Positions 1 through 36,196 of a DNA stretch of 36,196 nt are shown here, one piece after another. A program made the position numbers and the translations under genes. Source of the stretch: a virus; the IMG/VR virus record IMGVR_UViG_3300025168_000266, positions 1 through 36,196 of that record; one strand, 5' to 3'. The notes beneath the pieces were generated by a model, which made no database searches, was not told where the DNA came from, and saw only the letters and a list, made by a program, of their open reading frames with translations. The stretch's first letter is position 1, and each line of letters begins with the position of its first letter.

Positions 1-127
1 GCGGCAGCGCCGCTTTTTCTGCCTCAATGGACGACTTCTACAGGGGTCGAAATGACGCCTACCAAGGCGCACAAAACGCAGCTATTCAGGCCGGTGGCGC
101 GGAGCAATCCAGGCTCTTCGGGTTAGG
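1..127. repeat. Exact 127-base copy of 33364-33490 (assembly-type overlap)
   Basis: Every base of 1-127 equals 33364-33490. The first mismatch is base 128 (t) against 33491 (a). After that the two copies stay similar but differ at scattered positions. The exact length of 127 and the start at base 1 suggest a k-mer overlap left by a short-read assembler. Confidence 0.9.
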
Positions 128-1139
128 TTCGACGGCTCGACGTAATGCAATCTCTGAACAGAATTATCTGCGTGACTCAGTAGGCAGAGAGCAAGGCCAA
201 ATTCTTGGGCAGCAAGGCCAACTGGCGAGCCTGCAAGACAGAATTCGCAGCAGAGGCGCACAGGAACGTCTGTCGGAGCGCGAGGTTGGTCTTAATGAAT
301 CTGAGAGACTGCAAGCGTTACGGGGCAGGCAATTCACGGCGGAAGGTGCCGCCAGAGACAGGTCTGTTCAAGAGCAATTAATAGATAGAGATCGCCCGCT
401 TGAGGAAGCGGAGCGGCTCCAAGGCCTGCGCAGCAAGCAATTCGGTGTGGAGTCGGCGGCTAGAGATAGGTCCACCAGCGAGGAATTAACGCTGCGAGGT
501 CTTCCCGCTCAAGAGCAGGCCCAAATCCAAGCCATGCGTAGAGCGGCATTTGACGCACAAGGGCTGGAGAGATCGCGTGGCATTGGAGAGCAAGACAGTC
601 TCCGCAACCGCGCACTGACGGAGCAGCAAGCTAACTACAATATGCAAGCCGGTCTGTTTGGTCTCGACCAAGGCGCAAGGCAGCGCGCAATTGAAGAGTC
701 TGCGTATCTCCGTAACATGCCATTGAACGAGACATCAGCTTTGATGTCTGGCAACCAGATCATGAACCCGTCGTTTGGCGCTGCACCGAATACTGCGATT
801 GCTAACACTGATTATTCCGGGTTGGTTCAGAACCAGTACGCGGGTCAACAGAACCAGTACAACCAGCAAGTCGCGGCTAACAATTCGAAACGGGCTGCAA
901 TGGCTAGTATGGCGGGGACGTTGGGTAGTGCCATGATAAGTGACCGCAGAGTTAAACAAAACATAACCAAGGTTGGCACACTTGATAATGGCCTTCCCGT
1001 TTACTCCTTCCAGTACATCTGGGGCGGTCCACAGCAGATCGGCCTTATGGCTCAGGACGTTGAGAAAGTTAATCCTTCGGCTGTTTCTGAGGGTGAAAAC
1101 GGCATCAAGGGCGTTAATTACTCTGAAGCTGTGAAATAG
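1..1139 (+). CDS. Repeat-rich tail protein with C-terminal S74-type domain, 3' part (5' end cut by window edge)
   Basis: The frame is open from base 3, so the first in-frame ATG (27) is probably not the start. The product is homologous to the C-terminal half of the protein encoded at 32166-34625. Joining 32166-33363 to base 1 keeps the frame and gives a 778-residue protein. Visible parts, counted from the ATG at 27: a charged helical region, three 36-residue repeats (bases 321-644), an Asn/Gln-rich stretch containing PLNETSALMSG, and a C-terminal domain beginning SDRRVKQNI and containing IGLMAQDVEKVNP. That last part matches the start and core of the Peptidase_S74 intramolecular chaperone found at the end of trimeric phage fibres and spikes, but it is short (about 66 residues) and ends soon after the conserved VNYS segment. 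A structural tail role is inferred. Whether this short S74 domain self-cleaves cannot be told. SD-led gene 1149 follows after 9 bases. Confidence 0.8.
   Translation, partial: GSAAFSASMDDFYRGRNDAYQGAQNAAIQAGGAEQSRLFGLGSTARRNAISEQNYLRDSVGREQGQILGQQGQLASLQDRIRSRGAQERLSEREVGLNESERLQALRGRQFTAEGAARDRSVQEQLIDRDRPLEEAERLQGLRSKQFGVESAARDRSTSEELTLRGLPAQEQAQIQAMRRAAFDAQGLERSRGIGEQDSLRNRALTEQQANYNMQAGLFGLDQGARQRAIEESAYLRNMPLNETSALMSGNQIMNPSFGAAPNTAIANTDYSGLVQNQYAGQQNQYNQQVAANNSKRAAMASMAGTLGSAMISDRRVKQNITKVGTLDNGLPVYSFQYIWGGPQQIGLMAQDVEKVNPSAVSEGENGIKGVNYSEAVK
321..644 (+). repeat. Three 108-bp (36-residue) coding repeats
   Basis: In-frame units begin at 321, 429 and 537. Each starts with a charged R-x-x-x-F motif followed by a segment of the type RDRS-x-x-E. 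The homologous stretch at 33684-34331 holds six such units, so copy number differs between the two versions. Confidence 0.85.
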
Positions 1140-1148
1140 GAGAATATC

Positions 1149-2708: not shown

Positions 2709-2729
2709 TGTACAAACCTAGGGCATAGC

Positions 2730-4643
2730 ATGGAAACAACAGTAATACGGCCTGACGGTACGGAAGCGGTAGTGACGCATCCTAAGGGTGCGACCAGTGA
2801 TCAGATAATTGCGCTTGCTAGAGCCATGCACGAGCGGGAAAAACCCGTGGAGACTGTTGCCGCAGTGACAGCACAGCCCGACTCGGCACCGGCAGAATGG
2901 AATGAGCTTCCTGGTAACCTCGCTCCCACATTAGGCAAGGCTGCTGTAGGTATGTATGACGGCCTTGTCCAAATGGTATCTAGCCCAGTCGATACCACTG
3001 TCGGCCTGCTAGAACTTATTATAGGAACTGCCAGTAGAGCTTTCCCTGACGTGGCTGAAGAAGAGGGCGGCCTGCAGAAGATGGAGGCGCTGTCCCGTGA
3101 CGCACAGGACGCTATACTTGCACGTTACGGTGGATGGGCGGAACTTAAACAGACTGTCATTACGGACCCTGGCGGCGTTGCTGTAGACATTGCCTCGTTC
3201 TTTCTCCCGGCGATTGGTGCTTCCGCGAAAGTTACAGGGCTGGCTGGCTTGGCTAATAAAATTCGTAACTCCGCGCCTGTTACGTCAGCCGAAACGAAGT
3301 TGCGTAACGCTCCCATAGTTAAGGATTTAGAGAAAGTTATAGCCAGCAAAAACGCGCAATCAATGCAGACCGCGTTAAGGGTTGCAGCAGACCCAACTAA
3401 AATACTAGATAGCATACCATCGGCCTTGGGGAAAACTGCAAGAGGAGCCGGTAACGCAGCCATGCAGGTACTCAGTAAGACCACGGGGGTGGGCGTCGAT
3501 AACTTTAAAGACCTATTTACTGCCGGGAAGGTCGGCAAAAACGACGCAGTTGTCGCAGCCAGGAATATGAGAAACCCAGATGACAACCTAGACGACATGA
3601 TCGACTACGCCACGGACGGTGCGGAGAACCTGCGCCGCACCAGATCAGCGGAATACACGTCTGGCATGGGGCGTTTAGGTAACGACCCGACAGAGCTATC
3701 TTTAGATGGTATTAACGAAGCAATGGCTAAGGCCACGGCAGATAACTCCTTCCTTGATCAGCCCAAATCAAAGGCCAAACAGGCAGCCCTAAAAGAAGTC
3801 CAAAAGGAGATTGATGATTGGGCTGAGTTGGGCCCAGAGTACCGCACCCCTCTGGCACTCGACGCCTTAAAGCAGCGTATCAGCAGCCTTACCAATTGGA
3901 AGGACAAGACCTCTGACACAAACAATATATACGCAGGAACAGCCGGGGCAGTCAGAGAGACCATAGAAAAGCAGGCTCCAGAATATGGCAATATCATGCG
4001 TGATTATGCCTCTGCATCAGATGATCTTAATGACATAAAGAACTCTCTGGGGGCGTTAAAGAACAAGGATGTGACGCATAGGCGGTTAAGATCGTCTGGA
4101 CAAAACGATGTAAACGCTGCATTCGGGCAACGCCGCGAATCCGTCAACCTACTCGACAGCGCAACTGAGGCGCCTCTAAAGCCAGCAATTGCGGGGCAGT
4201 CTGCAGCATCGTGGACGCCACGCGGCATGGCTGGCGCACTCTCCCCCATTACCGCCCTTGGCGCCGGAACGCTGTCGCCCTGGGCGCTGTTAGCGGCTCC
4301 GATTATGAGTCCTAGAGTTATGGGTGAGGCGGCACTGGCTACAGGCAGAGTGGCTGACAAGGTAAATAAATCAGGGCCAGCGTTGAAGGCGCGCATGGGG
4401 CCACGGGTTGTGGAAGCTCTAGGCCCCCAGAAACGGCCTGTTGGACCGGGCGAAGTCCCAAGCATGGAAGAAGCTCTCATCCCTAGCATTGAAGTTGGCC
4501 GGCTAACAGGTAGGGGTCTATCTAACACAGCTAAGGTCGGAATTGTGGTAGATAGACTAGAAGAACAGAAACGAGAGTCTGAAGAAAAACGGAAAAAACA
4601 ACAAGCGTTACAAATGCTGCGCGCATTAATAGGAGACGAATAA
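2730..4643 (+). CDS. Presumed internal virion (ejection) protein, 637 residues
   Basis: The protein begins with a small beta-type segment (METTVIRPDGTEAVVTHPKG, then GATSDQI), a kind of N-terminal motif common in large internal proteins of podophages. Residues about 65-185 are rich in Ala/Gly/Val and amphipathic. They include a hydrophobic stretch near residues 150-175 that could interact with membranes. The rest is helical and charged, with another small-residue-rich stretch near 490-540 and a very basic/acidic helix at the C-terminus (EEQKRESEEKRKKQQ). Such composition fits a protein ejected into the host envelope with the DNA, but no enzymatic domain is visible and the role is inferred from composition and position. 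The next gene starts one base after its stop. Confidence 0.75.
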   Translation: METTVIRPDGTEAVVTHPKGATSDQIIALARAMHEREKPVETVAAVTAQPDSAPAEWNELPGNLAPTLGKAAVGMYDGLVQMVSSPVDTTVGLLELIIGTASRAFPDVAEEEGGLQKMEALSRDAQDAILARYGGWAELKQTVITDPGGVAVDIASFFLPAIGASAKVTGLAGLANKIRNSAPVTSAETKLRNAPIVKDLEKVIASKNAQSMQTALRVAADPTKILDSIPSALGKTARGAGNAAMQVLSKTTGVGVDNFKDLFTAGKVGKNDAVVAARNMRNPDDNLDDMIDYATDGAENLRRTRSAEYTSGMGRLGNDPTELSLDGINEAMAKATADNSFLDQPKSKAKQAALKEVQKEIDDWAELGPEYRTPLALDALKQRISSLTNWKDKTSDTNNIYAGTAGAVRETIEKQAPEYGNIMRDYASASDDLNDIKNSLGALKNKDVTHRRLRSSGQNDVNAAFGQRRESVNLLDSATEAPLKPAIAGQSAASWTPRGMAGALSPITALGAGTLSPWALLAAPIMSPRVMGEAALATGRVADKVNKSGPALKARMGPRVVEALGPQKRPVGPGEVPSMEEALIPSIEVGRLTGRGLSNTAKVGIVVDRLEEQKRESEEKRKKQQALQMLRALIGDE

Positions 4644-4644
4644 A

Positions 4645-6690
4645 ATGGCTAGGAATGGTTCAGGCACCTACTCAAATCCCTACAGTAACTTCGTGTCGGG
4701 GACTGTAATATCGTCCACTCAGGTCGACGCCAACAACAGCGACATCGCAACGGCGCTGACGCAATCAATTGCGGTCGATGGGCAATCCACTGTGACCGCC
4801 AACCTTCCAATGAACGCCAAGAAGCTTACTGGCCTTGCGGTTGGCGCTGCGGCGACTGACAGCCTTACCTTAGGGCAAGCCCAAGCCGAAGCGATGGTCT
4901 GGTGTGGGACGGCTGGCGGTAGTGCCAACGCCATCACATTGTCCCCCACACCCGCCATAACGGCCTACGCAGCCGGGCAACGCTTTGTCTGGAAGGCAAG
5001 TGGCAGCGTGAACACTGGGGCCACTACAGTCGCCGTTTCGGGCCTTGGGGCCATTGCTCTGCAAGATAATGGTAGTGCCTTAGCGGCTGGCCAACATCAA
5101 GCGAATAAGATATTTATGGGGATACTCGACACGACCTCGACGGTCCAGGTCACTCAGGTGCAGATAAGCGGAACTGATCCGCTGGTTGTGACTAGTTTGA
5201 CGGTTTCTGGAACTGCCACTGTTGGCGGCGCTTCACAGTTTAACTCAACTGTAACCGTAGGGGCGGATGGAACAGGCTACGACGTTACGTTTCACGGAGA
5301 TACCGCTAGTAGATATGTCAAGTGGGATGAGAGTGCCGACAGCTTGCTTTTTAGTGATAATGCCAAAGCAGTATTTGGCCAGCCTGGAAACGATCTACAA
5401 ATAGTTCACGACACTAATAATAGCTTCATAACCGACGCTGGCACAGGCAACTTATATTTGGATAGTAACGCCGGAAATATCTATTTAAGAGTTAATGCCA
5501 GCGAAAACGCCCTTGAAGCTGTAGGAGATGGTGCCGTAACGCTGTATCACAATGGCAGTCCTAAGATTGCAACGAGTGCTGCTGGTGTAACTGTCACGGG
5601 CGGTGTCTCGGGTGTAACCGGCATCAACTCAGGCCAGATTGGCGGTAGACGCAACATATTCTATAACGGTGAGATGAAGGTAGCGCAGCGTTCTACTTCA
5701 GAGACAGGGTTGGGTGCAGCATCAGGCTATTTCACGTTAGATAGATGGCAGATGTTTAGCAGTACAGCGGGTCGTTTTACAATGGCTCAAATTGCTGACG
5801 GACCGGCTGGTTTTGCCAACTCTTTAAAACTTACAACCACTACTGCTGATACATCCATTGCGGCAAGTGAGATTATTGTTCTAGCTCAAAACATTGAAGG
5901 TCAGGACGTACAGCAGATTAAAAAGGGCACGGCTTCTGCGGAACAATTGACGCTTTCGTTTTGGGTAAAGGGGAACGCATCAGCCACCTATGTTGCGGAA
6001 CTTTTTGATGCCGACAACACTAGGCAGATATCCAAATCCTTTTCCGTAACAACCTCGTGGGCTAAAATAACTCTGTTAATTCCGGCAGACACCACCGGAG
6101 TGTTGGACGATAATAATTTAACATCTTTTGGACTTAACATCTGGCTTCACGCCGGGTCGACCTACACCAGCGGCACTCTAAATAGCTCAGCATGGGCGGC
6201 GACTACTAACGCCAACAGGGCCGTTGGAATAAGCAGCATCGTTGACTCTACATCCCGCACATTCTTCATAACCGGCGTTCAGCTGGAGATTGGTGCAACA
6301 GCTACAGAGTTTGAACATAGAACTTTTGGTGAAGAGTTGGCTTTGTGCCAGCGATATCTTCAATCATCTTGGAGTCAAGGTTCTGCTATTGGGTCTACCG
6401 TGAGTTCAACGGCAAATGTAGTACAACAATCTTGGGGTTCGTCAAATTCAAGTGGCATAGCAGGACAAGCTTTTGTGTTACCAGTGACTATGAGAGCCAT
6501 ACCAACTTTAGTTACATATGATATAGCACTTAATACAGGCAAAGTGACTGCAATGAATGCAGGTGCAGGGCTGACAAGCAATGTGTCGGTAAATCAGAAC
6601 TATACGACTACGAATGTGTTTCAGGTTCGTATGTATGCTAACTCACAGCATGGAATAGTATTTGCTTACACATTATCAGCGGAGTTATAG
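4645..6690 (+). CDS. Tail fibre / receptor-binding protein, 681 residues
   Basis: The N-terminus (MARNGSGTYSNPYSNFVSGT, then the GQSTVTANLPMNAKKLTGLA region) is the standard virion-attachment start of many podophage fibres. The middle (about residues 200-320) is a beta-rich stem with repeated short motifs of the type YDVTFHGD, LYLDSNAGN and ALYHNG, expected to form a trimeric shaft. The C-terminal third (about 330-570) starts RRNIFYNGEMKVAQRS and has a carbohydrate-binding, jelly-roll-like pattern. It ends in the very common segment FFITGVQLEIGATATEFEHR followed by GEELALCQRYLQ, and a final variable beta domain follows. This is the likely host-recognition protein. GGAGA precedes ATG 4645. The small gene 6694 directly downstream is its likely partner. 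Confidence 0.88.
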   Translation: MARNGSGTYSNPYSNFVSGTVISSTQVDANNSDIATALTQSIAVDGQSTVTANLPMNAKKLTGLAVGAAATDSLTLGQAQAEAMVWCGTAGGSANAITLSPTPAITAYAAGQRFVWKASGSVNTGATTVAVSGLGAIALQDNGSALAAGQHQANKIFMGILDTTSTVQVTQVQISGTDPLVVTSLTVSGTATVGGASQFNSTVTVGADGTGYDVTFHGDTASRYVKWDESADSLLFSDNAKAVFGQPGNDLQIVHDTNNSFITDAGTGNLYLDSNAGNIYLRVNASENALEAVGDGAVTLYHNGSPKIATSAAGVTVTGGVSGVTGINSGQIGGRRNIFYNGEMKVAQRSTSETGLGAASGYFTLDRWQMFSSTAGRFTMAQIADGPAGFANSLKLTTTTADTSIAASEIIVLAQNIEGQDVQQIKKGTASAEQLTLSFWVKGNASATYVAELFDADNTRQISKSFSVTTSWAKITLLIPADTTGVLDDNNLTSFGLNIWLHAGSTYTSGTLNSSAWAATTNANRAVGISSIVDSTSRTFFITGVQLEIGATATEFEHRTFGEELALCQRYLQSSWSQGSAIGSTVSSTANVVQQSWGSSNSSGIAGQAFVLPVTMRAIPTLVTYDIALNTGKVTAMNAGAGLTSNVSVNQNYTTTNVFQVRMYANSQHGIVFAYTLSAEL

Positions 6691-6693
6691 ATC

Positions 6694-6984: not shown

Positions 6985-6993
6985 TGTGTCAAA

Positions 6994-21355: not shown

Positions 21356-21402
21356 TTTGCAATTACCGTTGCGTTTGTGTCATCATTGATTTAGAGGGCA
21401 TT

Positions 21403-21507
21403 ATGAGTAAGACTATGAAGCCGAAGAAACCGAATAGTGGCATGGTTGCCGCGTTGATGGGCACAACCAACGGGAAACCCAAGAAGAAGGGCGGCTATGC
21501 AGGATAA
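21403..21507 (+). CDS. Small basic protein between terminase and portal, 34 residues
   Basis: AGAGGG precedes ATG 21403. The 34-residue product is very basic at both ends (KTMKPKKPN, KPKKKGGYAG) with a short Met/Ala core. It overlaps the portal start by 11 bases. Small Lys/Gly-rich proteins at this position are common in related phages; their role is unknown. Confidence 0.6.
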   Translation: MSKTMKPKKPNSGMVAALMGTTNGKPKKKGGYAG

Positions 21508-23884: not shown

Positions 23885-23893
23885 GGGGTGATG

Positions 23894-24223: not shown

Positions 24224-24235
24224 AAGGGAAAAGAT

Positions 24236-25255
24236 ATGTCGGAAGTTACCGAAGACGTTGTAGAAACACAGTCCATGGACGACTTCATGGGCGAACAGTT
24301 TGACGTTCTGGAAGCGGAATCACCTGAAGAATCTGCACCCGTTGAACAAAGTGCTTCGGAGGAAGCGCACACAGATGACGTTGTTGACGAAGCAACAGAT
24401 ATCGACACAGAGAGCGAAGGTTCTGAACCTGATAATCAGACCATCACAGCCCCGCAATCTATGTCGGCGAAAGACCGCGAAGCCTTTTACACCTTACCGC
24501 CTGAAAGTCAGCAATGGATTTCAGATCGCGTTAAGTCACAAGAGGCAGACTACACGCGGAAAACTATGGAAGTCGCAGAACAAAGGAAAATGTACGATAA
24601 GTTGGAACAGGCCATTGCGCCTCGCCGACAGCAATTTGCAATGGGTGGAATGGACGACAGCACCGCAATCGGTCAGCTATTTGCCCTTTCCGACTACGCA
24701 GAAAGCGATCCGGTGGGTTTCTCGCGCTACCTGTTAAATCAGCGTGGAATTCCTATTTCTGCTTTAACTGAACCCGGCGTGGAGAACCACGTCGATCCTC
24801 AAATGCTTGCCATGCAGAACCGTCTGCAAGGCTTCGAGAATCATTTTGCACAACAGCAAGCGCAGCAAAGCGAACAAGAAGGGGCCGTCGTTTCGGGCGT
24901 CATCGATGGATTTGCATCTGAAAATCCATTCTATGGCGAACTTGAATCCGAAATGATCCCAATTGTCTCCGCGTTGCGTGAAAGCAAACCCGGTCTAACC
25001 AGCGAACAGTATCTTGCCACGGCTTACAAAATGGCTATTGCAGCCAATGATGAAGTTGCGGCCAAGATTAATGTTGATATTAAGGCCAAATCTGAGGCTG
25101 AACGTATTTCCAAAGCCAAAAAGCAGTCGTCGGCTGCTAAACGGGCGGGCGGGACAAGGGTTAGTTCAACTGGCGTGCTGCCAGCGGGTGCTGCTAAAGC
25201 GAAAAGTGTGGATGATTTTATCGGAGCTTTAGTTGACGACCGCATGACAGCCTAG
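24236..25255 (+). CDS. Scaffolding protein, 339 residues
   Basis: Position between portal and capsid, a very acidic N-terminal 80 residues, a helical centre (YTRKTMEVAEQRKMYDKLEQA, then a Gln-rich helix) and a basic C-terminal part (KAKKQSSAAKRAGGTR) are the usual features of phage scaffolds, whose basic end binds the capsid protein. AAAAGGGAAAAG precedes the start. No protease motif is seen, so it is probably recycled or ejected rather than cleaved. Confidence 0.85.
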   Translation: MSEVTEDVVETQSMDDFMGEQFDVLEAESPEESAPVEQSASEEAHTDDVVDEATDIDTESEGSEPDNQTITAPQSMSAKDREAFYTLPPESQQWISDRVKSQEADYTRKTMEVAEQRKMYDKLEQAIAPRRQQFAMGGMDDSTAIGQLFALSDYAESDPVGFSRYLLNQRGIPISALTEPGVENHVDPQMLAMQNRLQGFENHFAQQQAQQSEQEGAVVSGVIDGFASENPFYGELESEMIPIVSALRESKPGLTSEQYLATAYKMAIAANDEVAAKINVDIKAKSEAERISKAKKQSSAAKRAGGTRVSSTGVLPAGAAKAKSVDDFIGALVDDRMTA

Positions 25256-25273
25256 ACTAGAAAGGTCTAAATC

Positions 25274-26248
25274 ATGGGCGCTAATAGCTCGTTTACCGAA
25301 ATTGCGGCACTTACGTATCGCCATTTCAAAAACACGTATCTGGAAGATAACGTGTCGAACCATACGGCTCTGCATCAGCGGCTGACAGAAAAAGATCGCA
25401 TTGATCTTATTTCTGGAGGTTGGGAAATTCAGGTTCCTCTGGATTATGCTGAGAACGGCACATACCAACGCTACAGCGGCTACGATACGCTGGACATTGC
25501 GCAATCGGAAGTCTTTACCGCTGCCAATTTTGCGTGGAAACAGGTCGCCATCAACGTCGTAGCTTCTGGCCTCGAAGTTCGCCAGAACAGCGGCAAAGAA
25601 GGCGTTATCAAACTTGTGAAAAACAAGTTGAAGAATGCGATGCGGACAGCGGGAAATAACTTCTCGACCGACCTCTACAGTGACGGCACGGCTGCTAACC
25701 AGATTAATGGTCTGCAAGCTCTTGTGTCGGATGCTGGAACGGGCACGGTTGGTGGAATTAATTCCAGCACTTACACGTTCTGGAAAAGCATTCTTCAGTC
25801 TGCGGCCTCACCGCTGCAAGGCGGAGCTGGTATTACGCCAAGCGCCACAACCATTGAGAGCCTCATGCTCCCACTGTGGTTGGCTCTGACTCGTAACTCG
25901 GATATGCCGGACCTCATCGTAATGGACGATACCTATTTTACCTTTTTCGACGGTAGCCAAACGTCCATCCAACGCTATACCAACACCACGGATTTAAAAA
26001 CCGGAAGCACTTCCATCAAATACAAAGGTGCTGATGTGGTGTATGATAGCTCGGCTTCTGGTATGCCGGACGCGCACGCGTACTTCCTCAACACTGACTA
26101 TATCGGTATTTGCGCCCATCGTGACGCAAACTGGACGGAAGTCCCTGAGAAGTCTTCGGTGAACCAGGACGCGCAGGTTTTGCCGATCATTTGGCAAGGC
26201 AATTGCACCGTCTCTAATCGTTCACTTCAGGGCGTAATGAAAGCCTAG
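25274..26248 (+). CDS. Major capsid protein, 324 residues
   Basis: The order portal, scaffold, capsid, and the segments WEIQVPLDYAENGTYQRYSGY, NFSTDLYSDGT followed by QINGLQALVS, and DLIVMDDTYFTFFDGSQ, are characteristic of a family of HK97-fold capsid proteins in podophages and siphophages. The codon usage is regular and the leader (AAAGG) good, as expected of an abundant protein. The capsid is probably not cleaved, because no protease or delta domain is encoded. Confidence 0.9.
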   Translation: MGANSSFTEIAALTYRHFKNTYLEDNVSNHTALHQRLTEKDRIDLISGGWEIQVPLDYAENGTYQRYSGYDTLDIAQSEVFTAANFAWKQVAINVVASGLEVRQNSGKEGVIKLVKNKLKNAMRTAGNNFSTDLYSDGTAANQINGLQALVSDAGTGTVGGINSSTYTFWKSILQSAASPLQGGAGITPSATTIESLMLPLWLALTRNSDMPDLIVMDDTYFTFFDGSQTSIQRYTNTTDLKTGSTSIKYKGADVVYDSSASGMPDAHAYFLNTDYIGICAHRDANWTEVPEKSSVNQDAQVLPIIWQGNCTVSNRSLQGVMKA

Positions 26249-26271
26249 ATCAACTCTGAAAGGAGAGTAAA

Positions 26272-26775
26272 ATGTCAGACTACCAAATTACGAACTCGAT
26301 TGTCGGGGCGCAGAACATCTCTGTAACCTCGACAACCCAAAACCATGCACTTGGGCTTATCGTCCAAGCTGTTGATCGCGCCGCCACGGCGTATGGTGCT
26401 GGTGAGTTCGTCTACCTCAAAGGCGTCGCATCGACGGTCTTGGGTTCTTTTGTAACGTACAACGCCGACGACAACTCAACCGCGCTTTTGGCTGCGAACG
26501 CCATTGGCCCGGTTGCAACCTCGATGTCGATTAATGTTGCCAGTTCTTTTGGCTGGTACCAGATTTCGGGCAAAGCGGTTGGTAAAGCCAAAGCCAGCTA
26601 CGCTGACAACGGCCTTGTCTACGCGACTTCCACGGCTGGCAGCATCGACGATGCCGTCGTCGCTGGTGATCGTGTGAAATTGGCGTTGGGTGCATCTGCG
26701 GTGGACACACCGTCCAGCGGCCTTGCTGAGTTTGAGATTCAGCGGCCATTCATGGACGATGGGACTGCTGCTTAA
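26272..26775 (+). CDS. Probable capsid decoration or head protein, 167 residues
   Basis: A strong AAAGGAGAG precedes ATG 26272. The protein is beta-rich and made mostly of small polar residues, with FVYLKGVASTVLGSFVTYN and GWYQISGKAVGKAKAS, resembling small beta-barrel head proteins found right after the capsid gene. A decoration or cement role is inferred from position and composition. A hairpin follows its stop. Confidence 0.65.
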   Translation: MSDYQITNSIVGAQNISVTSTTQNHALGLIVQAVDRAATAYGAGEFVYLKGVASTVLGSFVTYNADDNSTALLAANAIGPVATSMSINVASSFGWYQISGKAVGKAKASYADNGLVYATSTAGSIDDAVVAGDRVKLALGASAVDTPSSGLAEFEIQRPFMDDGTAA

Positions 26776-26783
26776 TTATGGAC

Positions 26784-26815
26784 GGGGGCGCTCTTTCGAG
26801 GGCGTCCCCATCTTT
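26784..26815 (+). terminator. Hairpin after the capsid genes, possible weak terminator
   Basis: GGGGGCG-CTC (26784-26793) pairs with GAG...CGTCCCC (26798-26809), with a GG bulge, one G-T pair and a TTTC loop. Only ATCTTT follows, so termination is probably partial. That could lower expression of downstream tail genes relative to capsid. Confidence 0.5.
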
Positions 26816-26834
26816 AAGTTGAAAGGGAGAGATC

Positions 26835-27446
26835 ATGGTTGAGATGTTACAGGAAGAACGGCACGGGTTTTACGTCGAGTTTGAATTACGGCCGGAAGAA
26901 GACCGGGAGGAAACTATAGCTCAAGGGATGCCGGTTTTTAAAGATGTCGAATTTGCTATGATTACGATGCCCGGCGGCGGATTAGTCGTAGATAAGCCAA
27001 TTAATGAAGCGTTGCTGCATGAATGGAAGAATGGCGACAACCGAAGGAAGCCACCGTCTCCTTTTGCGTACCGCGCATATGAGGCCTGGAAGGAAGGCCG
27101 CGAGGCTCCTGTAAACGGCACAGACTTGAAGAACTGGCCTGGAGTGACCCCGGCACAGTTAAAGACCTGTCAGAATGCGACAGTCAGAACAATTGAGGAT
27201 TTAGCTGAGGCTAACGCCGATACGATACGCAAGCTGGGAATGGGCGGCGTAGCGATGATGGAAAAGGCGAAGGCATACCTGGCGTCTGCGAATCAGAACA
27301 AGACTTCGGAGGAAGTTTCTGCTCTAATGGTCAAACTTGATGCGTTGTCTGATACAGTTAAACGTAAAGACGAACAGATTTCTGATTTGTTGGAGCGGCT
27401 AGATGAATCTACTAAAAAGCGTGGTCGACCCCGAAAAGAGGACTAA
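26835..27446 (+). CDS. Hypothetical virion-region protein with helical-hairpin segment and AT-hook-like end, 203 residues
   Basis: The first half is mixed alpha/beta (FYVEFELRPEE, AMITMPGGGLVVD) followed by an aromatic/proline stretch. Residues about 115-155 (LKTCQNATVRTIEDLAEAN, then IRKLGMGG) look like a helix-hairpin-helix. The C-terminus is a short coiled coil ending in KKRGRPRKED, which contains the GRP core of an AT-hook. Both parts suggest DNA contact at the head-tail interface. The next gene begins directly after the stop. Confidence 0.65.
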   Translation: MVEMLQEERHGFYVEFELRPEEDREETIAQGMPVFKDVEFAMITMPGGGLVVDKPINEALLHEWKNGDNRRKPPSPFAYRAYEAWKEGREAPVNGTDLKNWPGVTPAQLKTCQNATVRTIEDLAEANADTIRKLGMGGVAMMEKAKAYLASANQNKTSEEVSALMVKLDALSDTVKRKDEQISDLLERLDESTKKRGRPRKED

Positions 27447-28145
27447 ATGACACTTTTAACCATCGTCCAGAACTCGTGCGATATAATTGGCCTGACGCGG
27501 CCAACGGTTGTGATTGCGTCTCAAGACCAGAATGTACGCACATTACTGGCGTTGGCGCAGGTTGAGGGCAGAGAGCTTCTTGACCGCTATTCCTGGCCCG
27601 CCACTCAGATTGAGAAGACGCACACAAGTCTGGCGGCAGAGGTGCAGGGCGTTATGACAACCCTTGCGCCGGGGTTTTCTTATATCACCAGCGGCACGTT
27701 CTGGGACCGGACTCTGACGCAGCCTGTGACGGGACCGCTGTCTCCTATCGAATGGCAAGCCCTGAAGGCCCGCACAGCGACGGGACCATACCCTAGCTAC
27801 AGATTGTTTGGGGGTAAGCTCTACGCCTACCCAGCGCCCGCTGCGGGGAATACATGGGTCTTTGAATACCAATCGACATACTTCTGCCAGTCCAGCGCCG
27901 GAGCAAATCAATCGGCATGGGCTGTCGATACAGATGTCGGCGTGCTAGACGAGAACCTGATGGAATTGGGGATTGTCTGGCGGTTCAAGAAGAAAAACGG
28001 ATTAGATTATTCTGAAGATTTTAGGTCTTATGAGCAGAAACTAGCGAACGAAACTTCACGCGCTGGCGGACGGCGGGTGTTAGATATGACCGGAATGGGT
28101 TCCGCTGCACGCGGCGTTTACGTCCCCGAAGGAAGTTGGGCTTAA
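27447..28145 (+). CDS. Head-to-tail adaptor protein, 232 residues
   Basis: A start (MTLLTIVQNSCDIIGLTRPT) rich in helix formers, then QVEGRELLDRYSWPATQ, and a C-terminal region with RFKKKNGLDYSEDFRSYEQKL, are the pattern of phage adaptor proteins that bind below the portal (the job of gp4 in P22). The central part (PSYRLFGGKLYAYPAP, WVFEYQSTYF) is a beta-hairpin insert. It precedes the nozzle gene, as expected. Confidence 0.82.
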   Translation: MTLLTIVQNSCDIIGLTRPTVVIASQDQNVRTLLALAQVEGRELLDRYSWPATQIEKTHTSLAAEVQGVMTTLAPGFSYITSGTFWDRTLTQPVTGPLSPIEWQALKARTATGPYPSYRLFGGKLYAYPAPAAGNTWVFEYQSTYFCQSSAGANQSAWAVDTDVGVLDENLMELGIVWRFKKKNGLDYSEDFRSYEQKLANETSRAGGRRVLDMTGMGSAARGVYVPEGSWA

Positions 28146-28160
28146 AAAGGAATATTCGAT

Positions 28161-28541
28161 ATGATGGATGGGCAGATCAGCAAAGAAGACATCATGAGAT
28201 TGTTGGAAAGCGAAGAAGGCAAAGCTATTTTACAGGAGATAATGGGAGCAGAAAGCTCTGGCGAAGCTGTTGGTGGTGAACCAATGCATATGATGCCTGA
28301 TGGCTCTATGATGAAGGGGACCACTCATACGGATCGGTCTGGTGCGGAGTTGACTGAAGATATTTTTAACCAATCGCCAGATGCAGGGAATGCACTGGAT
28401 GACCCTAGCAAGGTGCCGATGATAACGGAAACTGGAATTGTTGACCCATATTCGTCGGAGTCACTCGAAAAAAGAAGGATGATTGAGGAATACTTGCAAG
28501 CTCAGAGGAACAAAATGGGGAACGCCTTAACAGGCCGATAA
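28161..28541 (+). CDS. Small acidic Met-rich hypothetical protein, 126 residues
   Basis: AAGGA precedes ATG 28161. The protein has a helical start (SKEDIMRLLESEEGKAILQEIMG), a Met/Gly-rich middle and a helical end (RRMIEEYLQAQRNK). No family recognised. It stands between adaptor and nozzle genes and may be a minor virion or assembly protein. Confidence 0.6.
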   Translation: MMDGQISKEDIMRLLESEEGKAILQEIMGAESSGEAVGGEPMHMMPDGSMMKGTTHTDRSGAELTEDIFNQSPDAGNALDDPSKVPMITETGIVDPYSSESLEKRRMIEEYLQAQRNKMGNALTGR

Positions 28542-28545
28542 TAGA

Positions 28546-30087
28546 ATGCTCCAACCTCTTACAGACAACTCCAGGAAGTCCAAAGTATCGCAAAGCGCGA
28601 GTATTCCTGCGCCTGTGAAAGGTTGGAATGCGCGGGATTCATTGGCGAACATGGCCGAAGATTTCGCTGTTGAGCTTGAAAATGTGTTCCCCAACCTGAC
28701 AAGCTGCGATCTCAGATCAGGCTTTGCCTCGCATTCCACGGGGAATGGCACTGGCGCGGTCGAGACTCTGGTCGAATATGCGGGGCCATCGACACGCAAA
28801 CTTCTGGCCGCCGCTGGCTCTGTGATATATGACGCCTCTGCTGCCGGTGGCTCCACGTCGATTGCTACGGGAAAATCAAACGCACGATGGCAAACGGTTA
28901 TGTTTGGAACGTCGGGCGGCAACTTTCTCTACATGGTCAACGGCCAGGATGCGCCTGTTTACTATAACGGCAGCGCCTTCGTAACGCCAAGTCTTGCCGG
29001 TGTAACAGCGGCTAACATTGTGAATGTTGCGGCGCACCATCGACGCCTGTTCTTTGTTTTTAACGATAGCCTGATATTTGGATATCTTCCTGTCGTATCT
29101 GTGGCCGGGACGGTCGCGACATTTGATATTGGCGGACTCTGTAAGAAAGGCGGATACATTCAAGCCATTGGTAGCTGGACGCGGGATGGCGGGTCCGGCC
29201 CTGACGATCTATTTGTCGCGATCACCAGCGAGGGTGAATGCATCATCTATTCCGGCAACGATCCTTCCAGTGCTACAGCGTGGAATCTAGTCGGCGTGTT
29301 TAGTATCGGAAAGCCTATTGGCCGTAGATGCCTGGAAAAGGCTGGGTCTGATCTGACGGTTATCACACAGGACGGCGCTATATCCCTGGCGACGTTCCTT
29401 CCGATTGACCAAGTGGCTGGATATAGCCAAGCGATGTCCACAAACATTCAGAATGAGTTTCTTGCGTCTACAAGGTTGTATTCTTCCATCTTCGGGTGGC
29501 AATCCATCCATTATCCGCAAGGCTCTTACTCGCTATTCAACATTCCCAAGACCGCTTTGCTGGCTGATCAATATGTCATCAATACGCAGACTGGTGCGTG
29601 GTGTAAATTTACCGGGCAGAACGCGGCCTGCTGGTCGTTATTCAATGGCGACCTATACTTTGGCGCACAAGATGGCGGCATAATCTACAAGGCCGACACT
29701 GGCCAAAGCGATAACGATGCGGACATAGATTGGAAAATCAGACCTGCCTTTTCATATTACGGGTCGAGAGGGAACCAGAAACTATTCAATTTGTGCCGTC
29801 CTAATTTCACAACAAACGGCGCTCCTGCGTTTGCCATTGATTTAAACCTGAACTTCTCAGACATAAATCCGACTAACGTCCCAACAACCCCAACTCTGAG
29901 CGTTGGCGTCTGGGATGTGTCTAAATGGGATTCTGCGGATTGGGCTGATGAAGTTGTCAATCAATCGTGGACGACGGTCTTTGGCATAGGCGAGTGTGCG
30001 TCACCAACCATTCGCGGTAGCACCAAATCGATAACCTTGTCGTTCACGGCGTATGACATGGTTTGGCAGCAAGGCGGGGCGCTTTAA
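28546..30087 (+). CDS. Tail nozzle / packaged-DNA stabilisation protein (P22 gp10-like), 513 residues
   Basis: The protein starts with a PAPVKGWNARDSLANM segment, typical for tail hub proteins of this group. Through most of its length it shows repeated beta-strand blocks with aromatic and Gly residues (for example WQTVMFGTSGGNFLYMVNGQ and HHRRLFFVFNDSL), the mark of a beta-propeller. Size and position after the adaptor match the gp10 nozzle ring. It closes the tail channel and carries the fibres. It ends in a TAATG overlap with the next gene. Confidence 0.83.
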   Translation: MLQPLTDNSRKSKVSQSASIPAPVKGWNARDSLANMAEDFAVELENVFPNLTSCDLRSGFASHSTGNGTGAVETLVEYAGPSTRKLLAAAGSVIYDASAAGGSTSIATGKSNARWQTVMFGTSGGNFLYMVNGQDAPVYYNGSAFVTPSLAGVTAANIVNVAAHHRRLFFVFNDSLIFGYLPVVSVAGTVATFDIGGLCKKGGYIQAIGSWTRDGGSGPDDLFVAITSEGECIIYSGNDPSSATAWNLVGVFSIGKPIGRRCLEKAGSDLTVITQDGAISLATFLPIDQVAGYSQAMSTNIQNEFLASTRLYSSIFGWQSIHYPQGSYSLFNIPKTALLADQYVINTQTGAWCKFTGQNAACWSLFNGDLYFGAQDGGIIYKADTGQSDNDADIDWKIRPAFSYYGSRGNQKLFNLCRPNFTTNGAPAFAIDLNLNFSDINPTNVPTTPTLSVGVWDVSKWDSADWADEVVNQSWTTVFGIGECASPTIRGSTKSITLSFTAYDMVWQQGGAL

Positions 30088-31730
30088 TGGCTGAGAACGA
30101 CTTCTGGGAAGAACAATTACGCAACTGGGTGGAACAATCATCTAATAAGAATTCAGCCAGAGCGTTGCCCCCTAAAACTATGAGTGAGGCATTGAATAAC
30201 CGGTCAAAGGTTAAGCGCATGTCGCTCTTGCCGTACCCTCGACGGGGGGCTGACGGCGATATTGATATGACGGACTGGGTTGCGCCACAGGTCGCGATTG
30301 ATCTAATAGAGTCCGCCCAACTTCCGGGGCAGGTCTATCGCGGCGAAAAGGCGGGAACGCCAGAGGAAGCGCGCAAGATGGCGGTGGACGTCAACTTCGG
30401 TTCTGCGTTGCTGGGAAAGGCCCCTGCTGGGTCGCTGGGGATGAATATGCTGCGGCGCGAGCCGAAGATGCCTAGTCCATACGCCGCCGCGCCGGGATCG
30501 GACCCCAAGTATCTAGGGGCGGCACCGGACCGCACAGACATGTCTTTTCTAAGGTATACCCCAAAGAAAAATACGGCGCGCGTTGAGGCGTCTATCGCAG
30601 CTCTGCGTGACCCTGAAAACCCTATGCGACAACAAATGATGGCGGATATTGAAAAGGGGCAGAAACTTGGTGGCGACGACTGGTACAATACGGAAGAGTT
30701 ACGCGATTGGTTTGTGAAGGAACACGGCGCGAAGGAGGGCCACAGACAGTGGGCCGAGTATATGGATTTGATGGGCGCAACGTCGCCTGGATCAAAGGTT
30801 CCCGCAAATATGGGGAATGCGTCGGCCATGCGTCAACGGATGTATTCTGAAGAAATTCCGGGCGGTTCAAACCGTACCACAGGCGAAATATATCGCGATG
30901 ACCTTGCTGCTGTAGATAACTTAGAAACTGCCCGTCCGCTGGCTCGTGGCAGAGAGCCTGGGTATGGACACAAAACTCAGGGGCTGCAAGAATTAATTGC
31001 GGCGCGGCAGGCTCAAGGAAATTGGACCGGAGGTTTGCAGCCGGGCGTCCCTGCTGGCAAGGGTTCCTGGCGAGAAAATCCAAAGCCGAAAGGGTTTGCA
31101 CAAAGCCTAAAGGGCAGCGAGCGCAACATTGCTGCGGACCTGCACTTCACGCGCTATATGGCAATGGCTTCGAAAGACCCTGAATGGTTGTCTGGGAATG
31201 CTGAGATAGGGCAAGATGTCCTGTCTAAGTTAAGGTCTGTTGGCGGCGATGGCATAGAGAAGTACATAAAAACACGCGAAAAAGACGGGAAGGTTTTAAC
31301 GTCCTTTAACGTAAAAAAGGCGGCGAAGGATGGAGCCATTACGGTTGATGAGGTCTCCAAGTTGGATTCTCCACAAATGTGGGCTGATAAGCCCAATGAC
31401 AGTGAGTACGCTGCCATGGAACAACTTATGTACGAGATAGGGAAAGGGACAGGGCAAACCGGCCCTCAACTCCAGGCGTCCTTGTGGATGGGCGCGGCTG
31501 ACAGAACCGGCGTTGACCCTACCAGTCAAGGAACCTTTATGGAGCTACTCCGAAGGCGCGCGGCCAAGCGTGGGGAAAAAGAGGGGCTAACAGAGCAGCA
31601 AGTTCTCAAGAGGTTTGTGAAAGACCGTGGTTTACTGTCCAACCCCGGCGACCCACTATCCGCAGCCGCAGCGTTACAGAAGCAATACGAAGACGAACAG
31701 CTTCTGAAGTTTCTTGAAACAGGCGCTTAA
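30087..31730 (+). CDS. Large hypothetical virion-region protein, 547 residues
   Basis: The ATG at 30087 overlaps the nozzle stop (TAATG); an upstream frame to 30063 lies inside it. The protein is hydrophilic, without membrane segments or repeats. The central part has LQELIAARQAQGNWTGG, then PKGFAQSLKGSERNIAADLHF and RYMAMASKDPEW. The C-terminal part contains QLQASLWMGAADRTGVDP. These segments recur in unannotated proteins (DUF7178-like) of marine podophages. A role in the virion interior or as an injected factor is possible. Confidence 0.7.
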   Translation: MAENDFWEEQLRNWVEQSSNKNSARALPPKTMSEALNNRSKVKRMSLLPYPRRGADGDIDMTDWVAPQVAIDLIESAQLPGQVYRGEKAGTPEEARKMAVDVNFGSALLGKAPAGSLGMNMLRREPKMPSPYAAAPGSDPKYLGAAPDRTDMSFLRYTPKKNTARVEASIAALRDPENPMRQQMMADIEKGQKLGGDDWYNTEELRDWFVKEHGAKEGHRQWAEYMDLMGATSPGSKVPANMGNASAMRQRMYSEEIPGGSNRTTGEIYRDDLAAVDNLETARPLARGREPGYGHKTQGLQELIAARQAQGNWTGGLQPGVPAGKGSWRENPKPKGFAQSLKGSERNIAADLHFTRYMAMASKDPEWLSGNAEIGQDVLSKLRSVGGDGIEKYIKTREKDGKVLTSFNVKKAAKDGAITVDEVSKLDSPQMWADKPNDSEYAAMEQLMYEIGKGTGQTGPQLQASLWMGAADRTGVDPTSQGTFMELLRRRAAKRGEKEGLTEQQVLKRFVKDRGLLSNPGDPLSAAAALQKQYEDEQLLKFLETGA

Positions 31731-31747
31731 CAACAGGGCGGGGCACT

Positions 31748-32173
31748 TTGAACCAACTGATCTGTGGCCGCGACGAAGAACTCGCGGAATGGGCGGAAGA
31801 TCACTACCCCGACTGCGCGCCGTTATCGCGACCTTTGACATCAATAGGCGTGGCGTCAGATAGCGGTGATATTATGGGGGTTGCCATTTTTCACAATTAT
31901 CGTCAGAATGACATCGAAGTCACTTTCATAACCGCGACCCCAAGGTGGGCCACGCTGGGAACTATACGGGGAATACTTCATTACCCGTTTAAACAGCTAG
32001 GCGTTAAGCGGATGACGGCTATTACTAATAAATCAAACAAGAAGGCCCGAAAGCTATTAACCGGTCTTGGGTTCGTCCTGGAGGGCGTGCATCCTTTTGC
32101 AGCTACAGACTGCACATCAGCTTGCACATACGGGCTATATGCTAAAAACGCGGAGAGATGGTTAAATGGGTAA
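31748..32173 (+). CDS. GNAT-type acetyltransferase, 141 residues
   Basis: A GNAT pattern is seen: GVAIFHNYRQNDIEVTFI as the central strands, then RWATLGTIRGILHYPF (acetyl-CoA-binding helix) and a strand with a KSNKKARKLLTGLGFVLEG ending. The only in-frame start in a suitable place is TTG 31748, after GGGCGGGG. It is encoded within the structural block and overlaps the next gene by 8 bases. In other phages a GNAT gene also sits between virion genes; the substrate is unknown. Confidence 0.8.
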   Translation: MNQLICGRDEELAEWAEDHYPDCAPLSRPLTSIGVASDSGDIMGVAIFHNYRQNDIEVTFITATPRWATLGTIRGILHYPFKQLGVKRMTAITNKSNKKARKLLTGLGFVLEGVHPFAATDCTSACTYGLYAKNAERWLNG

Positions 32174-34625
32174 AAAAACTCCACAGGCTCCTACTCCTCC
32201 CGATCCGGTTAAAACGGCGCAGGCTCAGGGTGTCATCAATAGAGAGACGGCAATCACGCAAGCCAATCTAAACCGGTTTGATGAATATACGCCGTATGGA
32301 TCGTCTACTTGGTCTCAGCAGGGGGGCAGGGCAACTCCAGGGACTCCAGGAACTCCAGGAACCGCAGGCACTCCCGGCACCCCAGGGACGGGGGGAACCC
32401 CAGGGACTCCAGCTTCCAGAGAGCCTATTTATTCTGAAGATTCATGGGTCGAGGGTTATGACGACGACGACAGCGAGGGCGGCACTACATATGTCCCCGG
32501 ATATATGAAAAAAGGGGGAGAGATAACCGGATATAGGGATATTGCTGCCACCCCAGGCACTCCCGGCACCGCAGGAACCCCAGGTACTCCCGGCACTCCA
32601 GGCACCGCAGGGACGCCAGGCGGATATGACCCCAACGACCCTACTCAAAGGTGGACAAGAACAACAACGCTCGACCCAGAGCAGCAAGCACTTTTCGATA
32701 AGCAGACGGCTGTTACCAATGAACTAAATCAAACGGCTTTGGATCAAGTTGGAAGGGTTGGACAAGCCCTCTCCACACCATTCTCATATGAAGGTATCTC
32801 TCCTGCTGGTTCGACGGCTGGCGCTAGGTCTGCGGCTGGAAGAGTCGCAGATATTAGCAACACGGCCTACGACTATTCTGGACAGCCAGCGGCACCAAGT
32901 GCGCGAGGCATTACGGATTCAGCCGATATTGCCGCTCGATCTGTTAGCTCTCCGTTCTCTTTTAGCGGTCAAGCCCCCAGCACTTCTGGCGTAGCTAACG
33001 CGGCTCAGATGGGTGCTAATGCTGTTAGTACGCCATTTGCCTTGCAAGGCAGAGGGCCGGGTACTGCTGGCATATCTGGCGCTGCCGACCGTGCAGAGGC
33101 CGGTATGGCGCAGCGGTTCAATTACGATGGGTTGCCAGCGGGGTCAACTGCCGCAGGGTCTCAGGCTGCTGTCCAGCGGACCACTGACGCCTACGGGACG
33201 CCACTTAATTACGATGGCGCACCAGCGGCACCCGGTGCAGATTCAGCGGCCCGTCAGCAAGTTATCGATTCACTGTACCAACAGCAGACGTCTCGCCTTG
33301 ATCCTAGATTTGCAGGCGAGTTAGTACAAAAAGAGACACAGCTTGCGAACTCTGGCATAACGCGCGGCAGCGCCGCTTTTTCTGCCTCAATGGACGACTT
33401 CTACAGGGGTCGAAATGACGCCTACCAAGGCGCACAAAACGCAGCTATTCAGGCCGGTGGCGCGGAGCAATCCAGGCTCTTCGGGTTAGGATCAACGGCT
33501 CGACGTAATGCAATCTCTGAACAGAATTATCTGCGTGACTCAGTAGGCAGAGAGCAAGACCAAATTCTTGGGCAGCAAGGCCAACTGGCGAGCCTGCAAG
33601 ACAGAATTCGCGGCAGAGGCGCACAGGAACGCCTAGCGGAACGCGAAGTTGGTCTCAATGAATCTGAGAGACTTCAAGGAATGAGGGGCAGACAATTTTC
33701 GGCGGAAGGTGCCGCCAGAGATCGTTCTGTCCAGGAGCAATTAATTCAGCGTAATAAGCCCATGGAAGAAGCCGCTCAGTTGCAAGCGTTAAGGGCGAGA
33801 GAGTTTGGCGCGCAAGGCACCGCCAGAGACAGGTCTGTGCAAGAGCAATTAATAGATAGAGATCGTCCGCTTGAGGAAGCGGAGCGGATGCAAGGTATGC
33901 GTAGAGCAGAATTTGACACTCAATCTGATGTAAGAGACAGGTCTGTTCAAGAACAATTAATAAACAGAGATCGTCCGCTTGAAGAAGCGGAACGGCTTCA
34001 AGGCATGCGTAGAGCAGAATTTGACACTCAATCTGATGTAAGAGACAGGTCTGTTCAAGAACAATTAATAAACAGAGACCGTCCGCTTGCGGAAGCGGAG
34101 CGGCTTCAAGGCATGCGCAGCAACCAATTCGGTGTGGAGTCGGCGGCTAGAGATAGGTCTACCAGCGAGGAATTAACGCTGCGAGGTCTTCCCGCTCAAG
34201 AGCAGGCTCAAATCCAAGCCATGCGCGGTGCGGCATTCGACGCGCAGGGGCGAGAGAGATCGCGTGGCATTGGAGAGCAAGACAGTCTCCGTAACAGAGG
34301 TCTAACAGAGCAGCAAGCTAACTATAACATGCAAGCTGGGTTGTTTGGCCTCGATCAATCAGCAAGGCAGCGCGCAATTGAGGAATCTGCGTATCTTCGT
34401 AATCTTCCATTGAACGAGACTTCAGCTTTGATGTCTGGCAACCAGATTATGAACCCGACGTTTGGGTCTGCTTCGCCAACAGCGGTTGCTAACACAGATT
34501 ATTCCGGGCTGGTTCAGAACAATTACAACGCTCAGGTTAATGCGGCAAACGCGGCAACGGGAGCGAGAAATGCCCAGACGGGCGCTCTGGCTGGAATAGC
34601 CAGTGCTGGAATAACGGCGTTCTGA
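32166..34625 (+). CDS. Repeat-rich tail protein with collagen-like segments, long-repeat version without S74 domain, 819 residues
   Basis: In order: a conserved start (TPPDPVKTAQAQGVINRETA, then NRFDEYTPYGSSTW), two collagen-like Gly-x-y stretches (residues 59-82 and 131-151), and about six degenerate 27-29-residue repeats of the type F/Y-x-G-x-P (about 205-370). A helical region with LDPRFAGELVQKETQLANSGI follows, then six 36-residue charged repeats (507-722) and the PLNETSALMSGNQIMNPTF end. This general form is common in podophages and siphophages. A fibre or tail-tip function is inferred. This version lacks the S74 domain seen at 1139; from residue 400 on it may be an alternative end of the same gene. 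It ends in a TGATG overlap with the PAPS reductase gene. Confidence 0.82.
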   Translation: MGKKTPQAPTPPDPVKTAQAQGVINRETAITQANLNRFDEYTPYGSSTWSQQGGRATPGTPGTPGTAGTPGTPGTGGTPGTPASREPIYSEDSWVEGYDDDDSEGGTTYVPGYMKKGGEITGYRDIAATPGTPGTAGTPGTPGTPGTAGTPGGYDPNDPTQRWTRTTTLDPEQQALFDKQTAVTNELNQTALDQVGRVGQALSTPFSYEGISPAGSTAGARSAAGRVADISNTAYDYSGQPAAPSARGITDSADIAARSVSSPFSFSGQAPSTSGVANAAQMGANAVSTPFALQGRGPGTAGISGAADRAEAGMAQRFNYDGLPAGSTAAGSQAAVQRTTDAYGTPLNYDGAPAAPGADSAARQQVIDSLYQQQTSRLDPRFAGELVQKETQLANSGITRGSAAFSASMDDFYRGRNDAYQGAQNAAIQAGGAEQSRLFGLGSTARRNAISEQNYLRDSVGREQDQILGQQGQLASLQDRIRGRGAQERLAEREVGLNESERLQGMRGRQFSAEGAARDRSVQEQLIQRNKPMEEAAQLQALRAREFGAQGTARDRSVQEQLIDRDRPLEEAERMQGMRRAEFDTQSDVRDRSVQEQLINRDRPLEEAERLQGMRRAEFDTQSDVRDRSVQEQLINRDRPLAEAERLQGMRSNQFGVESAARDRSTSEELTLRGLPAQEQAQIQAMRGAAFDAQGRERSRGIGEQDSLRNRGLTEQQANYNMQAGLFGLDQSARQRAIEESAYLRNLPLNETSALMSGNQIMNPTFGSASPTAVANTDYSGLVQNNYNAQVNAANAATGARNAQTGALAGIASAGITAF
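32340..32411 (+). repeat. Collagen-like Gly-x-y repeat, 8 triplets
   Basis: Residues 59-82 of the tail protein are eight Gly-Thr-(Pro/Ala/Gly) triplets encoded by near-identical 9-base words. This is expected to fold as a triple helix or flexible stalk. Confidence 0.9.
32556..32618 (+). repeat. Second collagen-like repeat, 7 triplets
   Basis: Residues 131-151 of the same protein are seven Gly-Thr-(Pro/Ala) triplets, separated from the first block by an acidic linker. Confidence 0.9.
33364..33490. repeat. Second copy of the 127-base terminal overlap
   Basis: Identical to bases 1-127. From 33491 onward the sequence follows a different branch from bases 128 onward. Confidence 0.9.
33684..34331 (+). 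repeat. Six 108-bp (36-residue) tandem coding repeats
   Basis: Units start at 33684, 33792, 33900, 34008, 34116 and 34224. Units three and four differ at only four bases, indicating a recent duplication. Consensus core: RDRSVQEQLI-x-RDRPLEEAE. The homologous copy at the left edge has three units. Confidence 0.9.
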
Positions 34626-35341
34626 TGAATAAAGCTATACAATTTTCTGGGGGTAAGGATAGCATTGTTTGCTTACACCTGTTCAAAGACGAACCTGATA
34701 TAAAGGTTATATTCACCAATACGGGGAATGCCTTTCCTCATGTTCTGGATTTTGTATCTGAGACCTGTGAGAGCTTTGGTTTGCCTTTGATTGTTGCTGG
34801 ACCAGAAAAGCCTGTTTCTGATTGGCATAAAGAGGTTGGGTTTCCTGCTGATATTGTTCCCTGGGATTCAACACCAGCTATGGCAGAAGTGTCAGATAAC
34901 AGCTTCGGAAAGACACTGGTTCCTTATACCGACTGCTGTTCTGCGAATATCTGGCAACCGATGAACAGAGCAGTCATGGAGAATGACATAGGATATATAG
35001 TCAGAGGGTCAAAATCTTGCGACTCGAAGGTCGGTGTTCCAGATGGATTTGTCGATGAGAATGGAATCCATTACCACTCACCTCTTTGGGATTGGACCGA
35101 TAAGGATGTCTTTGATTACATATCTGAACACAAGTTATCTATCCCTGACCAATACGAGAGGGAGCATAACGACAGTTTGGATTGCTGGTGCTGCACCGCA
35201 TATATGAGTAAATCCGGTGCTGCCAGGTTATCTTACACTAAAGAGAAATATCCCGATCTATATGATATAGTCCAACCAAACATATTGGCGGTAAACTCTA
35301 CCGTTAAGGCGGCTTTAGATTATTACGCGGAGGGCTTTTGA
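34625..35341 (+). CDS. PAPS-reductase family protein (ATP-pyrophosphatase type), 238 residues
   Basis: SGGKDS at residues 8-13 is the PP-loop of the PAPS reductase / N-type ATP pyrophosphatase superfamily; FTNTGNAFPH and SPLWDWTDKDVFDYI are further family segments. Cysteines at DCCSAN, KSCDSK and DCWCC could bind a metal or act in redox. Phage homologues are frequent, and known relatives act in sulfate reduction, DNA phosphorothioation (DndC) and nucleotide modification; the actual substrate here cannot be told. The gene is coupled on both sides by TGATG overlaps and is absent from the other version of this locus (1139 to 1149). Confidence 0.85.
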   Translation: MNKAIQFSGGKDSIVCLHLFKDEPDIKVIFTNTGNAFPHVLDFVSETCESFGLPLIVAGPEKPVSDWHKEVGFPADIVPWDSTPAMAEVSDNSFGKTLVPYTDCCSANIWQPMNRAVMENDIGYIVRGSKSCDSKVGVPDGFVDENGIHYHSPLWDWTDKDVFDYISEHKLSIPDQYEREHNDSLDCWCCTAYMSKSGAARLSYTKEKYPDLYDIVQPNILAVNSTVKAALDYYAEGF

Positions 35342-36196
35342 TGGCTGGAAGATTCGGTTCTTTAAAATTTTACGACGACGATATGAAAAAAGCGTTGCGT
35401 GGAGCCACCCCCAAGAAGCTGGACCGTGTTAAACTAGACACATCCCCAACAACAGCTTTAGGCGGCGTAGCCAGAGTGGCTGGAACCTTTGCAGAGCAGA
35501 TAAGGGCAGCTAACGAAAAGAAAGTGTCCGAAGAGCGCAGAAAGATGAGGTCTGCGTTGTTACGGGCGTATATGGCTCCGAAGAAAGTCTTCGATCCCAC
35601 TGCGGGAGAGGCTTCCATAATGGACGACGACGCGCCGGAAGAAATGCCGGAAGTGAGTCAGTATGATGATGCAGAAGCAGCCTTTAAATTGAATAATCCT
35701 TCTCGAATGGAAGCTGCCCTCCGCGCCCAAAGTGAATTTGTACCGCCCGAATCAGGTATGTTTGGTCCTGGGGCAGGCGCCTATGCTGGCATGGGCGACG
35801 AAACAATAGATGAGCTTTCTCTCTTAGAGTACAACAATCGTCTGGCGGAGGAAGAAAGAGAGAGGGCGCTTGCTGAAACAATAGACGCTGAAGGACGTAA
35901 ACAAACGAACGCGATGGAGCTTGCGGCTTACAGACGGGAAAAGGGCGGCAATGCGAAATATAGCAACACCCCTATTTGGGGAGAAGATTCGGAAGGAAAC
36001 CCTGTTTTAATGCAGACGAACAATGCCGGAGGGGAGTTGAGGATAGCAAAACTACCGCCTGGAGTAACCGCCCGGCGCGGCCAAACTTCAAGAGTTGACC
36101 TAGGTGATAAGTGGGCTATTCTTGACGCCAACGGCACAGTTATTGGACACCAGCCTAAGGGCCTAGCGCCGAAACGCGTCGTAAACAAGGCAGGGG
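35341..36196 (+). CDS. Presumed virion protein, cut by the right edge (285 codons seen)
   Basis: The start overlaps the previous stop (TGATG) and the frame is open at 36196. The N-terminal 120 residues are basic then acidic (KKALRGATPKKLDRVKL, ARVAGTFAEQIRAANEKK). A charged helix (LLEYNNRLAEEERERALAE) follows, then a beta-type region (WGEDSEGNPVLMQTNNAGGE, GDKWAILDANGTVIG). The layout resembles the N-terminal half of the 519-residue protein at 1149, with little identity. It is probably the positional counterpart of that protein in the alternative version of the locus. Function unknown. Confidence 0.65.
   Translation, partial: MAGRFGSLKFYDDDMKKALRGATPKKLDRVKLDTSPTTALGGVARVAGTFAEQIRAANEKKVSEERRKMRSALLRAYMAPKKVFDPTAGEASIMDDDAPEEMPEVSQYDDAEAAFKLNNPSRMEAALRAQSEFVPPESGMFGPGAGAYAGMGDETIDELSLLEYNNRLAEEERERALAETIDAEGRKQTNAMELAAYRREKGGNAKYSNTPIWGEDSEGNPVLMQTNNAGGELRIAKLPPGVTARRGQTSRVDLGDKWAILDANGTVIGHQPKGLAPKRVVNKAG

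Follow-up and report, generated by a model that had tools for sequence, protein, structure and literature searches.

Repeats at the ends of viral contigs cluster at the k-mer lengths used by assemblers, such as 55, 77, and 99, and they are left by assemblers that break circular templates (CheckV; PMC8116208). The k-mer lengths of the JGI metaSPAdes recipe are 33, 55, 77, 99, and 127, according to the assembly descriptions of two papers that use it (PMC11584781; PMC10604447). The sequence analyzed here (the window) is the IMG/VR virus record IMGVR_UViG_3300025168_000266 at its full length of 36,196 nucleotides. It resembles the CheckV overlaps in that the contig start recurs at an exact k-mer length, as when a circular template is broken. 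Unlike them, it appears to leave on its second pass by the branch of another strain, and the repeat is internal and followed by 2.7 kb of a foreign allele. Because the repeat is internal, a test for terminal repeats would label the record linear.

A genome of the same layout is that of the uncultivated phage ctMlz233 from Manatee Spring (MW202489.1; circular, 40,250 bp), in which genes for TerL, portal, head, tail, stabilization protein, GNAT, the virion structural protein S1, two large proteins, and a collagen-like fiber follow one another as in the window, with leftward early genes thereafter. The portal and head proteins are 37% and 57% identical to those of the window, and ctMlz233 has its own DNA polymerase. 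Its one S1 gene lies between the GNAT gene and the positions of A2, A3, and the fiber gene, where A2 and A3 are the two large genes behind S1 in the window; its counterparts of A2 and A3 match by position only. Three IMG/VR contigs, L043 (3300028548_003993), L045 (3300047668_000487), and L047 (3300030105_002289), carry the virion module of the window, and parts of the locus match at 86–94% DNA identity. The window holds two versions of this locus, branch A from base 1 and branch B from base 33491, whereas each of these contigs holds a single one: the layout of L045 is A-like, although it lacks the S74 end described below, and L043 and L047 have layout B.

The exact identity of bases 1–127 to bases 33364–33490, with the copies parting at the next base, had been reported in a first-pass annotation of the sequence, and self-comparison of the window reproduces it exactly, with the first mismatch at 128/33491. 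This pair is the longest exact direct repeat of the window; its first copy would be the start of branch A and its second the node copy with an out-edge to branch B, both on the plus strand, as are the parts of branches A and B, the S1 start, the virion module, and the match at 25130–25256 described below. No contig carrying the node sequence was found by an exact-pattern scan of IMG/VR. Homology persists beyond the node, at 94% over 1–382 and at 88% over the 486 bases of a second stretch (354–839 versus 34041–34526), the 324-bp offset between the copies corresponding to three more 108-bp units in the second copy than in the first; DNA-level relatedness is lost after about base 839 (42% ungapped). 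The copies differ at 24 of 255 bases past the node, positions 128 and 131 included, and at this mean rate a clean run of 127 bases has p ~4e-6. The length alone is weaker evidence than this value, because the bases just past the node are well conserved (only three mismatches in 128–248), and the argument that the run is improbable in itself was dropped for this reason. The telling features are that the match begins exactly at contig base 1 and that its length is exactly a known k, 127 being the top k-mer of the JGI recipe.

Overlaps of exact k length also occur where sister contigs break. When exact matches of at least 31 bases between the end of a related IMG/VR contig and another contig were collected (n = 177), the commonest length was 99 bases (11 of 177) and a length of 127 bases occurred once, the majority being of non-k length. 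Individual overlaps are of 127 bases in L007, 99 in G010, and 77 in G008. The identity of L007 (sample 3300046532) to the window is otherwise 89%, but its end matches 25130–25256 exactly over 127 bases; this stretch, a probable second k=127 node, lies at the end of gene 24236–25255, just before the head gene. This match is as expected if two strains shared a k=127 graph and points to that origin, and it hints that the window derives from the sample of L007 or from a related assembly, although chance keeps some weight because conservation is high at 25130–25256. The k list of the JGI and the k-length overlaps of relatives support the earlier proposal that an exact match of 127 from base 1 marks a de Bruijn branch, and the assembly of the window itself presumably used k=127. 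Any branch gives an exact match of length k at a contig start, so the node does not give the upstream extent of strain identity.

Two relatives have repeats of their own. In G008 (L090; 3300030105_002171), which wraps at 33,790 bp, bases 1–77 equal 33791–33867 exactly in the orientation analyzed, and about 1.1 kb of a diverged branch with 87–95% identity lies past this 77-base node; judged from its sequence, G008 shows the wrapped-contig artefact of the window at a different k. In G010 (L118; 3300028925_003154), bases 1–99 equal 35548–35646, an exact 99-base overlap of start and end, and this contig is probably a complete circular relative of 35,547 bp.

When the window is closed from 33363 to 1, a gene becomes intact again and the gene order agrees with that of relatives (L045, L047, G001, and MW202489). 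The open reading frame upstream of the node (32166–33363), which contributes the N-terminal 399 codons of S1 (phrog_6121, virion structural protein) and is read into both branches, joins 1–1139 in frame to give 779 codons including the stop; unjoined, it continues to 34625 as an ORF of 819 amino acids. That the closure keeps the frame and yields a protein of 778 residues, as had been suggested, is thereby confirmed, and the restored protein ends in a Peptidase_S74 domain as in L059 and L061. In the closed map, the virion module at 19979–32173 (TerL, portal, major head protein, tail genes, amidase/stabilization protein, and GNAT) leads to S1 and then to A2, A3, and the fiber gene. The single contig G001 (36,288 bp) carries S1, PAPS reductase, fiber, helicase, primase, TerL, portal, and head genes in the order obtained by closing the window, but it is opened at another point of the circle. 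The order of the 33,363-bp map is secure, and 1–33363 is probably the complete phage map. The closed map may be circular or circularly permuted/concatemeric; the assembly fits virion DNA that is circular, permuted, or terminally redundant alike.

Two further observations concern the virion module. An ORF of 555 amino acids (30063–31730), which has no match in Pfam or PHROG, lies between the amidase/stabilization gene and the GNAT gene; it is absent or different there in nearly all relatives, and L045 keeps only its first 45 residues. No relative of the major head protein was found across 84,980 bacterial and archaeal genomes, and no host is therefore proposed.

The two branches differ both in the C-terminal part of S1 and in the genes behind it. 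The N-terminal half of S1 contains collagen-like GTPGTPGTA repeats. In branch A, the C-terminal part (1–1139) ends in a Peptidase_S74 chaperone domain (PF13884, 3.3e-9), and this C-terminus is also found in L059 and L061. Next come A2 (1149–2708; 519 aa), A3 (2730–4643; 637 aa), a gene of the structural region with homologs at the same place in L047, L064, L069, L090, and L125, and the tail fiber gene A4 (4645–6690; phrog_4492), a homolog of the collagen-like protein of MW202489. A pattern-based search found no close relative of the A2 protein, whereas HMM comparison of neighboring genes found homologs, which occupy the same place in L045, L047, L054, and L059. In branch B, the C-terminal part of the 819-residue version (33491–34625) has three extra 108-bp/36-residue repeats and no S74 domain, and it is also found in L043, L046, and L047; version A has the motif RS..E[EQ]L at residues 520 and 556, and version B has it at residues 520, 556, 592, 628, and 664. 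The S1 gene of branch B is followed by a moron gene for PAPS reductase (34625–35341; PF01507, 2.4e-18; phrog_424, 1e-27), which is absent from branch A and has counterparts with 85–99% identical proteins at the same place in L046, L047, L043, L048, L123, and L054. The last gene, B3 (35338–36196), runs off the end of the contig (286 aa, open) and is a homolog of A2 by HMM comparison: a profile built from B3 and four relatives, with A2 left out, matched A2 at 5.5e-31. An exact-pattern scan of IMG/VR with the last 60 bases found no contig that continues branch B past 36196.

With B3 homologous to A2, branch B represents another allele of this locus, and this homology together with the gene orders of L047 (S1, PAPS reductase, a B3/A2-type gene, A3, and fiber on one contig) and L045 (S1 directly into an A2-type gene) places the B-branch S1, PAPS reductase, and B3 where the A-branch S1 and A2 stand. 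A complete S1 gene was found in 28 related contigs, the circular genome MW202489 included, with one copy each within the contig sequence, and in these contigs it precedes the A2, A3, and fiber genes or their positions; the fiber gene lies downstream on the same contig in 10 of the 28. Thus, the locus has one copy per genome and its flanking genes are homologous on both branches, as expected of alternative alleles. The C-terminal ends of S1 appear exchangeable among relatives, being an S74 domain, a short end in AF followed by the PAPS reductase gene, or neither. The S74 version is present in five of the 28 contigs, the PAPS reductase gene in 13, and both in none, although three of the five S74 contigs stop too early past S1 to exclude the reductase gene. 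The first-pass annotation had read 33491–36196 as another version of the locus from a related phage or subpopulation, a view supported by the homology of B3 and A2 and by the single-copy S1 of relatives; it can now be refined, since branch B is more than a diverged copy and has three more 36-residue repeats, no S74 domain, and an added PAPS reductase gene.

Taken as a whole, the record is very probably a k=127 walk once round a 33,363-bp circular map and then into allele B of a related strain. The record would be a linearized walk through the de Bruijn graph of a mixed phage population: the walk would leave the branch node via allele A, circle the map once, re-enter the node, and leave a second time via allele B, whose 2,706 bases end inside a gene. 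S1 is a virion structural gene with one copy per genome; it has an S74 chaperone end in allele A, and in allele B it has additional coiled-coil-like repeats and a short C-terminus and is followed by a PAPS reductase gene. The apparent repeat is an artefact of assembly: the genome of the phage is shorter than the record, and it contains the gene only once. Real strain variation probably underlies the two alleles, which would come from co-occurring strains; beyond the artefact, the biology is that of ordinary microdiversity among phages, in a virion gene that is rich in repeats and whose C-terminal modules are exchangeable.

A possible, though not favored, qualification is that the circle is itself a mosaic, with crossings between strains at shared stretches of at least 127 bases (e.g., 25130–25256), such that 1–33363 is the right map and not the genome of one strain. 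L007 joins the window at such a 127-base node, and phasing of strains across conserved stretches longer than k is impossible for de Bruijn assemblers (PMC11443906); on the other hand, gene content and base composition give no direct sign of a break. This reading modifies the explanation by a wrapped walk more than it competes with it. It is rather unlikely that one population keeps two interchangeable S1 C-terminal modules, S74-chaperoned and PAPS-linked, swapped by within-gene recombination at the 36-residue repeats, which would diversify receptor or assembly properties while the remaining genome does not diverge.

A real tandem duplication, in which S1 and its neighbors are present on one molecule as two diverged copies (B, then A), perhaps as an exchangeable tail/virion cassette, would accord with two in-frame, intact copies that are 88–94% alike on one contig. 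However, copy A lacks the 5′ part and a start of its own, beginning mid-gene at contig base 1, so that two starts do not stand on one molecule; a second copy was seen in none of the 28 related contigs with a complete S1 and nowhere in the long records G001, G002, and G008–G010, each taken whole; the S74 and PAPS versions were never found together; and B3 and A2 are homologs at the same place. This reading was rejected as highly improbable. Programmed switching of one phage between states A and B, by inversion, a diversity-generating retroelement, or a recombinase, would suit a repeat-rich protein of a virion-exposed type that varies in its C-terminal half, but it was likewise rejected and has very little probability, because the window contains no inverted repeats of at least 25 bases, the ORFs scanned include no recombinase, invertase, or reverse transcriptase, and the differences are scattered substitutions and gene content and not a swap between fixed sites.

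The wrapped walk through two strains is an artefact of a kind already known, of which the window is a clean case and G008 a second one among its relatives. If the record is taken for one linear molecule, the genome length comes out wrong (36.2 rather than about 33.4 kb), a gene falsely appears duplicated, an S74 virion protein is falsely associated with PAPS reductase, and what is probably a complete phage map receives the label “linear, incomplete”. The flaw is shared by at least one relative (G008), so a simple test of whether the first k bases occur again within a contig would bring to light complete phage genomes missed by end-repeat tests.
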